A stretch of 37,887 bases of DNA from Gammaproteobacteria bacterium (GTDB lineage Bacteria; Pseudomonadota; Gammaproteobacteria; Steroidobacterales; Steroidobacteraceae). Where the stretch lies: positions 1 through 37,887 of the forward strand of contig JAFAKO010000240.1 of assembly GCA_019235245.1 (NCBI GenBank), in the 5' to 3' direction. Below are positions 25,093 through 29,340 of this stretch, piece by piece (position 1 is the first letter of the stretch; every line of letters starts with the position of its first letter). The notes below the pieces were generated by a model, which searched no databases, was not told where the DNA came from, and saw only the letters and a list, made by a program, of their open reading frames with translations. Position numbers and translations under genes: made by a program.

Positions 25093-28000
25093 ATGAATAA
25101 CAGCTTCCGGGCACGCTCGACGCTCAAGGTCGGCGATCAGAGCTACGAGATCTGGAGCCTTGCCGCATTGCCGCAGGAAAAGCTCGCGCGCCTGCCCTAC
25201 TCGCTGAAGGTGCTCCTCGAGAACCTGCTGCGCTACGAGGACGGTGTCAACGTGACCCGTGCCGACATCGAGGCGCTCCTCGAATGGGACCCCGCTGCCT
25301 CGCCCGCGCACGAGATCGCCTTCACTCCCGCCCGCGTCATCCTCCAGGATTTCACCGGTGTGCCGTGCGTCGTGGACCTCGCCGCGATGCGCGATGCGAT
25401 CGTGCGCCTCGGCGGCAGCGCCGAGCGCGTCAACCCGCTGAACCCCGCGGAGCTCGTCATCGACCATTCGGTGCAGGTCGATGAATACGGTTTCCCGGGC
25501 GCGCTCGCCGCCAATACCGCGATCGAGTTCGCGCGCAATCGCGAGCGCTATGCGTTCCTGCGCTGGGGACAGACGGCGTTTCGCAATCTGGCGGTGGTGC
25601 CACCGAGCACCGGCATCGTGCACCAGGTGAACCTCGAGTATCTGGCGCGGGTCATTTTCGATGCCTCGACCGATGGCAGCCGCCGCGCTTACCCCGACAC
25701 GCTGGTCGGCACCGACTCGCACACCACCATGGTGAACGGCCTCGGTGTCCTCGGCTGGGGCGTCGGTGGCATCGAGGCCGAGGCAGCCATGCTCGGCCAG
25801 CCCGTCACCATGCTCATCCCGCAGGTGATCGGTTTCCGGCTCGAGGGGCGGCTGCAACCGGGCGCCACCGCCACCGACCTGGTGCTCACCGTGACGGAGA
25901 TGCTGCGCAAGCGCGGCGTGGTGGACAAGTTCGTCGAGTTCTTCGGCGACGGTCTCGCGAATCTGCCGCTCGCCGACCGCGCGACCATCGCCAACATGGC
26001 GCCCGAGTACGGCAGCACCTGCGGCATCTTCCCGATCGATGCCGAGACGGTGCGTTATCTCGAGCTCTCCGGCCGCCCGCGCGAGCGTCTCGAGCTCGTG
26101 AGCGCCTACGCGCGCGCTCAGGGGATGTGGCGCAACGAAGGCGCGCTGCCCGCGAGCTACACCGACGTGCTCGAGCTGAATCTCGGCACGGTCGAGCCGA
26201 GTCTCGCCGGACCACGCCGTCCGCAGGACCGCGTGCCGCTGAAGAGCGCGAAGCAGGTCTACGAGCTCAACGCGAAGAAGGCGGCCGAGGAGCGCACCGC
26301 GCGCGGCAGCGGCGCCCGCGGCGTGGCCACGGCGAAGCTCAACGGCGGCAGCTACGAGCTGAAGGACGGCTCGGTGCTGATCGCCGCGATCACGAGCTGC
26401 ACCAACACCTCCAACCCATCGGTGATGCTTGGCGCAGGACTGCTCGCGCGCAAGGCACGAGCCCGCGGGCTGAAGTCGAAGCCGTGGGTGAAAACGAGCC
26501 TCGCTCCGGGCTCACGCGTGGTGACGGACTATTTCACGAAGGCCGGGGTGCTCGAGGATCTCGAGGCGCTCGGCTTCGATCTCGTCGGCTACGGTTGTAC
26601 GACGTGCATCGCCGCAGGCACGCCGGTGCTGCTCGCCAATGGCACCGCGCGCCGGATCGAGAGCCTGCCCGCGGCCGGCGGTGTGCGACTCTTCGGTCCG
26701 ACCGCTGACGGTCGCCTCGCGATGGCCACGCAGACGGAAATGATGGTGCAGGGTGAGCGCGAATGTGTCTCGGTCGTTCTGCAGGATGGGCGTCGCCTGG
26801 TCTGCACCGACGATCACAAGATCCTGTGCGCCGATGGCCGCTGGGTGGAGGCGGGAAAACTCGTGCGTGGCCGGGATCGTGTGGTGGTTGGGCTCGAGGC
26901 GCCGCTGGATCAACCCGCGCCGGACGAGCACGGCTACGAGCTCATCGCAGGCGCGATGCGGTTTGGCTTTGGCGATGAGCACGCCCGTGCCCGCACGCTC
27001 GCCTTCGCGCGGCTGGTGGGTCATCTGGTGAGCGACGGCTCGATAAGCGTCCTCGGCCAGGGTCGCATGCACCTCGGGCAGGCCCTCGACCGTGAAGCGG
27101 CGCTCGACGACATCGAGCTGGTCACTGGAAAACGACCCGTCGGGACCCGCTACGACTCGCGCAAGTGGACGATCGTCCTGCCCATGGAATTGACTGCGGC
27201 GATTGCCTCGCTCCCGGGAGTGAGCCGGGGCCGGCGCATTCACCAGATACTTGCCCTGCCGCAATTCATACTCGAGGAAAATTGTCCGGTCGCCGTGGTG
27301 CGCGAATTCCTCGCCGCACTCTTCGGTGGGGACGGACATGCACCGAATCTGCAGCGACAGGGGCCCAAGGAGGCGAGCGCCGTGCTGAATCCTCCGGCCT
27401 TTGCGCACAGCGCGCCGCCGGAGCATGTGCCTGCGCTCGAGGAGGTCATGCGGCAGATCGTGCGTCTGCTGGTGCGCTGTGGAGTAAAGGCCCGCGGAGC
27501 GCAGATCTACACCTATCCCACGCGGCGCTCCTCATCGACCTATCCGCAAGCCCGCGATGGCCTGGAACGCGTAGAGGTCCGGCTGGTACTTCCCGAGGGG
27601 CTCAGTTTCGTAGAGCGCGTCGGCTTTCGCTATTGCGTCGACAAGGCGTTGCGCGCGAGTGCCGCGGCGGTGTACTGGCGCACGATCGACACGATCAACC
27701 GCCAGCGATTGTGGATGGCCGATCGCATCGAAGCCCTGAATGAGAACTATGCATTCAGTTTCCAGCAGACACGCCGCATCGCGGCTTCTGAACTGATGTT
27801 GCTGGAGACGGTTCCTTTCCCTCACTACGCGCTGCTCGAAGGTCACGACCGCTTCGACCGCTTGCCCGGCTCGGGGAACCAACGCACCTTCCGGCCGCTG
27901 CACCGAGGCCGGTGTGACTTTCCTTCGCCGGCGCAACTCATGCGCGAAATCGGTGCGCGCGACTGGTTTGCACCGCTTAGTGCGCGGGACAGCAACGCTC

Positions 28001-29340: not shown

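Follow-up and report, generated by a model that had tools for sequence, protein, structure and literature searches.

The acnA gene in the window (the whole stretch of 37,887 nucleotides that was analysed) raises the question of how a TCA-cycle enzyme comes to be encoded in 1415 codons, and of what the additional residues are and do. We confirm that acnA is interrupted in frame by an insert of 518 codons and that an ordinary 897-residue AcnA is left without it, as the first-pass annotation had claimed; the borders it gave for the insert, 26605-28158, prove exact. The parts of the gene are as follows.

25093..29340, + strand: acnA with its intein, encoding a 1415-residue precursor; the coordinates take in the stop codon (open frame; AcnA models above their cut-offs)
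25093..26604, + strand: N-extein, 504 residues, ending in GYGCTT (first stretch of NF006757 and TIGR01341)
26605..28158, + strand: intein, 518 residues from Cys1 to His-Asn (alignment of 38-39 members; model; PDB matches)
28159..29337, + strand: C-extein, 393 residues, starting with Cys+1 (second stretch of the AcnA models; IRP1 alignment)
26596..26598, + strand: Cys502, which is Cys-3 of the intein and an expected iron-sulphur ligand (aligned with the first Cys of GCMTC in IRP1)
28159-28161, + strand: Cys+1, which is Cys505 of spliced AcnA and an expected iron-sulphur ligand (IRP1 alignment)

The frame from 25093 to 29340 (+) holds no internal stop codon in its 1415 residues, and the insert occupies precursor residues 505-1022, beginning CIAAGT and ending VVAHN, after which the host protein resumes with CIGNSG. 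Both AcnA models, NF006757 (1386 bits against a cut-off of 686) and TIGR01341 (1343 bits against 945), match in two stretches split around the insert, and residues 20-891 of the joined protein align with IRP1/cytosolic aconitase (E 0); the host is assigned to AcnA by models above their cut-offs together with three ligand cysteines, Cys436, Cys502 and Cys505, aligned to IRP1. Removal of the in-frame insert leaves the 897-residue protein, and 26 empty alleles exist in the genus. The computed masses of 96.8 kDa for the joined exteins and 57.0 kDa for the intein agree with the earlier estimates of about 97 and 57 kDa, the precursor coming to 153.8 kDa. An assembly chimera is very unlikely, because relatives of the intein also lie in two long sequences, the complete chromosome of L042 (5.07 Mb) and a congener's contig of 1.3 Mb (L047 = G001).

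In its catalytic residues and predicted fold, the insert matches class 1 inteins of full length that bear a LAGLIDADG endonuclease, which supports the identity first proposed for it. Its elements lie as follows.

26605..26889, + strand: N-terminal splicing region, intein residues 1-95 (match to residues 1-95 of the M. tuberculosis RecA intein)
26806..26817, + strand: block B TxxH with Thr68 and His71 (both in 39/39 complete inteins)
27013..27039, + strand: first LAGLIDADG motif, LVGHLVSDG, with Asp144 (Asp in 38/39)
27307..27336, + strand: second LAGLIDADG motif, FLAALFGGDG, with Asp243 (Asp in 37/39)
28084..28140, + strand: block F region with Asp500 (39/39)
28144..28158, + strand: block G, VVAHN (Asn in 39/39, penultimate His in 38/39; His-Asn is enforced by the search pattern for the pattern loci)

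The 39 complete inteins compared are that of the window, those of 37 loci found with a DNA pattern, and L066, the alignment having 38 rows with the window included and 39 once L066 is added. Cys1, Thr68, His71, Asp500 and Asn518 are kept in all 39 and both endonuclease aspartates (144 and 243) in 37; conservation of His517, Asn518 and Cys+1 among the pattern loci is enforced by the search pattern. In the window itself the class 1 residues are all present: Cys1, the TxxH of block B, the Asp of block F, His-Asn and Cys+1. The block names are the customary ones for inteins, and PMC8966425 uses the naming of blocks A-H alike. Searches of the precursor and the intein against family models gave strong AcnA matches and modest intein scores, with TIGR01443 (intein C-terminal) alone of four above its cut-off (17.7 bits against 15.6); TIGR01445 (intein N-terminal, 21.3 against 24.5), Pfam Intein_splicing (29.4 against 35.8) and Pfam LAGLIDADG_3 (17.3 against 22.5) score below theirs, although LAGLIDADG intein endonucleases are among the matches of the fold search. 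The AlphaFold2 model of the intein, built with 38 rows, has a mean pLDDT of 89.8 and a pTM of 0.91; its 11 best Foldseek matches in the PDB are full-length inteins or intein endonucleases, with low whole-model TM-scores, and its HINT fold overlays the RecA intein 2in0 at 1.2 Å over 100 columns (TM 0.62 by target length). It is the catalytic residues, the aligned relatives and the confident fold model that carry the intein call, the library scores being modest. Five cysteines with no assigned role, at intein residues 54, 67, 227, 292 and 344 (window 26764-27636), are nearly invariant (C54 38/39, C67 39/39, C227 39/39, C292 39/39, C344 36/39), and they may bind metal or form further redox pairs.

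The place of the intein bears on its host. The insertion falls between Thr504 and Cys505 and parts two of the three expected ligands, Cys502 and Cys505. In the alignment Cys436, Cys502 and Cys505 face the cysteines of SCTNTSN and GCMTC in IRP1, and we take them to be the three [4Fe-4S] ligands of aconitase. As the cysteines of the CxxC motif are not both in place in the unspliced precursor, aconitase activity should depend on splicing, and unspliced AcnA should be inactive. That the site would matter in this way, Cys502 being parted from Cys505, goes beyond what the first-pass annotation had claimed. AcnB was not found in eight genomes of the genus, five with the intein and three without it, nor above cut-off in the genome from which the window comes (84% complete), in which no second AcnA was seen either.

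We propose that acnA very probably harbours a mobile, endonuclease-bearing class 1 intein that homes into the gene and splices out of its product, and we infer splicing, cutting and homing from sequence, predicted fold, the family of relatives, empty sites and discordant histories. The intein stands immediately ahead of the last of the [4Fe-4S] ligand cysteines of AcnA, and its Cys1 would take the N-extein via an acyl shift, aided by Thr68 and His71. Cys+1 would then take the N-extein and Asn518 would cyclise, releasing an intact 897-residue aconitase in which, only afterwards, Cys436, Cys502 and Cys505 would be positioned for the cluster. The LAGLIDADG domain, for its part, would cut intein-free acnA alleles at the codons conserved for the ligands, and the intein would be copied in as the cut acnA is repaired. 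Through such cutting and copying the intein would spread with each exchange of acnA DNA and, on an evolutionary scale, would travel far. Because the ligand is needed and the protein is apparently the only TCA aconitase, imprecise loss would be costly, which would help the intein to persist; we infer that growth likewise depends on splicing.

An intein that had ceased to splice, sitting in a decaying acnA, would account for some features of the window, in which several near-invariant residues are changed, among them Asp69 (Pro in 37/38) and Ala516 (Val in 36/38), and in which the GC3 of the intein is 0.73 against 0.88 for the extein. Against such decay, all 518 codons are open and the catalytic residues are retained, the C-extein has a dN/dS of 0.18 in comparison with L023, and the search of this genome (84% complete) gave neither a second AcnA nor an AcnB above cut-off. 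We consider a dead insert highly improbable.

How far such inteins extend was assessed in one scan of 84,980 species genomes with a degenerate DNA pattern encoding His-Asn and, directly after it, CIGN(S)G. The scan returned 62 loci, of which 14 are not aconitase inteins and 48 are, all 48 at the same codon and with the C-terminal junction in frame; such an insert at one codon in 48 of 62 loci from a single pattern is more than a chance occurrence. Because His-Asn and CIGN are fixed in the pattern, it passes over variants like L066, and the true number is at least 48. By their labels the loci belong to Pseudomonadota (14), Chloroflexota (13), Eisenbacteria (4), Omnitrophota (2), and Acidobacteriota, Myxococcota and Planctomycetota (one each), while 11 are archaeal (nine Nitrososphaerales or Thaumarchaeota, one unclassified archaeon and one Marsarchaeota) and one further bacterium has an intein that groups with those of archaea. 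The family thus spans, by record labels, seven phyla of bacteria and two or more archaeal groups, and the case in the window is, as judged by sequence, one member of a widespread one-site family of aconitase inteins, which the first-pass annotation had not foreseen. Complete inteins number 37 among the 48; the other 11, ten of them running off the locus edge and the last being L030 (a stop 111 codons ahead of His-Asn, in a contig labelled low coverage), were omitted from the intein alignments and both trees, and L066 (G016) was added from the search of the genus. L066 ends in Ser-Asn instead of His-Asn before Cys+1, a natural variant of the penultimate His. Two aconitase-intein loci, L006 and L037, lie in one Nitrososphaerales MAG (JOPF212), as a strain mixture or a duplicated gene; L017, labelled Proteobacteria, is nevertheless sister to L015 of the Ktedonobacteria in both trees and perhaps comes from a mislabelled bin, and L020, also labelled Proteobacteria, is placed ambiguously.

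Among 37 genomes of the window's own genus the intein is present in eight, the site is uninterrupted in 26 and three could not be judged, whereas none of the 23 genomes searched from other genera of the order has it. These 60 genomes gave 14 with a match at E 0.001 or better, eight of which carry the aconitase intein, while the remaining six show nothing beyond weak matches confined to residues 1-91 or a shorter part (E 3e-4 to 8e-4). Two of the eight have additional weak matches. Weak matches to the N-terminal splicing part occur in other frames in G001, G005, G006, G008, G013, G018, G026 and G029 (E 1e-5 to 8e-4), and such matches in congeners are probably inteins of a different kind in different host proteins. 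What looked like a frame break in G026 (L067) was rejected, being a run of N in the contig. For three of the 26 intein-free loci of the genus (L095, L099 and L103) the motif was not matched, leaving 23 in the extein tree and in the flank-codon and Ser+5 comparisons. In a phylum-wide sample of 398 genomes the intein was found in the window's own genome only (E 1e-8 or better), and no match, and so no vehicle, was found in viral contigs (searched by pattern and by protein), plasmids or phages.

Patchy presence of this kind, eight genomes with and 26 without in the genus, is joined by a history unlike that of the host gene, as is expected of a mobile intein. Identity to the window ranges from 53 to 72% for inteins and from 50 to 86% for exteins, and the two track each other poorly: L058 (Ktedonobacteraceae) has 66% in the intein and 58% in the extein, L047 (the congener) 62% and 85%. 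The inteins of six close gammaproteobacterial loci are on average 62% identical (59-67%) to those of eight mostly Ktedonobacteria and 59-72% identical among themselves, whereas the exteins of the same six average 59% to the eight and reach 83-88% among themselves. Ten archaeal-type inteins form one clade in the intein tree (support 100/98), while the exteins of these loci fall into two separate groups in the extein tree, a quick tree with long branches flagged, L028 and L013 among them; in the same tree L023 and L062, both with the intein, are sister to L089 and L101, respectively, both without.

These data bear on a second alternative, that of an old, vertically inherited intein with many losses and little transfer. 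Eight gammaproteobacterial inteins do cluster (support 100/99), as do the archaeal ones, and over all 725 pairs identity in the intein correlates with identity in the extein (r 0.52), so that some of the history is vertical or local. Vertical descent as the whole account is already disfavoured, and we regard it as improbable, given the absence of the intein from all 23 genomes of the order's other genera, its restriction to one genome in the phylum-wide sample and the division of the archaeal exteins into two lineages. Furthermore, dS of the intein exceeds that of the adjacent C-extein in 9/9 hand-chosen pairs, with values near saturation. Mobility of the intein is also consistent with the codon for Ser+5, which is AGY in 4/7 intein alleles of the genus against 0/23 empty alleles (Fisher p 0.0013; post hoc and ignoring kinship), as expected if flanking DNA is copied in with the intein. 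In the nine chosen pairs the dN/dS of the intein is 0.09-0.31, which shows constraint, and worn endonucleases are found in two of the 39 complete inteins: L033 lacks both aspartates and L017 one, and both, at 443 and 476 residues, lack part of the endonuclease domain. Such decay is a prediction of the homing-cycle model, according to PMC8966425.

Whether the mobile intein is also put to use by its host is a further matter. Aconitase is a textbook oxidant-sensitive enzyme and a natural candidate for a redox gate. The intein would then also act as a switch: oxidation would join Cys1 to Cys-3 (or Cys+1) and halt splicing, leaving an inactive precursor in store, a role that we hold to be rather improbable. 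The release of the gate under reducing, iron-replete conditions, giving new aconitase only when its fragile cluster can survive, belongs to the same doubtful proposal. On this tentative view, a bacterial and archaeal intein family has captured the ligand loop of aconitase and might double as a post-translational gate through a disulfide between Cys1 and a ligand. The arrangement of cysteines at -3, 1 and +1 (GCTT before Cys1) suits it, as do the AcnB results and a Foldseek match to 3nzm, a redox-trapped DnaE intein that carries its N-extein (E 3.3e-5). According to the reviews PMC3922620 and PMC10663303, the P. abyssi MoaA intein has a native Cys-3/Cys1 disulfide that can regulate it, and the Pab PolII intein is kept from splicing by one between Cys1 and Cys+1; PMC6195587 reports oxidant sensing by a mycobacterial DnaB intein. 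Against such a gate stands the absence of the intein from 26 of the 34 decided genomes of the genus. Since Cys-3 and Cys+1 are required by the enzyme, their conservation cannot separate a switch from coincidence; we dropped the conservation of Cys-3 as support for this reason, and the MoaA-like pair of Cys-3 and Cys1, present in the window and forced by the host, lends it little weight.

Two neighbours of acnA are recorded here. Just downstream, a MsrP/MsrQ methionine-sulfoxide reductase pair (30020-31753, +) scores above the NCBIfam cut-offs, another link to oxidative stress and possibly a chance one. The gene at 19716-21179 (-) belongs to the fumarase/aspartase family; it scores 567 bits to fumC_II, short of the cut-off of 665, and 540 bits to a subfamily model for aspartate ammonia-lyase, whose cut-off is 510.

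As for the host, inteins do favour proteins of DNA metabolism, but the review PMC7765530 counts metabolic enzymes among those known to carry them. No report of an aconitase intein surfaced in open-literature searches, which were judged mainly by titles and the openings of abstracts and had intein catalogues outside their scope, and no intein-containing aconitase model is among the best 25 of 34 NCBIfam matches. Aconitase as an intein host thus seems unreported, priority being unproven. The case adds a TCA-cycle enzyme to the hosts of inteins, with a bacterial and archaeal family and an insertion between two cluster ligands. As empty alleles, inteins with both aspartates and worn inteins all exist, it offers a ready system for the study of long-range homing. 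Finally, the oxidant sensitivity of aconitase would make the open question of inteins as redox sensors addressable with a growth readout.

The known systems nearest to this one resemble it in different respects. MoaA belongs to the radical-SAM enzymes and contains iron-sulphur clusters. The intein of P. abyssi MoaA shares Cys-3 and Cys1 and an oxygen-sensitive host, and its native Cys-3/Cys1 disulfide is reported to control splicing (PMC3922620 and PMC10663303); its host is a different one, and the likeness is drawn from flanking cysteines instead of a sequence comparison. The M. tuberculosis SufB intein, likened by description only, also has an iron-sulphur related host (PMC8891592), although that host is a cluster assembly factor and not a cluster enzyme. 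Among the best NCBIfam matches are the RtcB-related intein NF038162 (E 1.3e-9, insert residues 1-393) and the Rv2578c-type intein NF038136 (E 9.4e-8, insert residues 1-82), both from other hosts; their scores, 36.6 and 31.3 bits, compare with whole-protein cut-offs of 1150 and 700. Full-length VMA inteins (T. litoralis 7qss, E 1.1e-13, and PI-SceI) are the best fold matches and likewise combine a splicing domain with a LAGLIDADG endonuclease, but whole-model TM-scores are low (0.29/0.36 for 7qss) at 14% identity. The M. tuberculosis RecA intein (PI-MtuI), although its host is RecA and its match is limited to the splicing parts, comes closest in sequence among solved structures (E 7.7e-8), and its splicing part, at 32% identity, superimposes on that of the aconitase intein over the same 100 columns.
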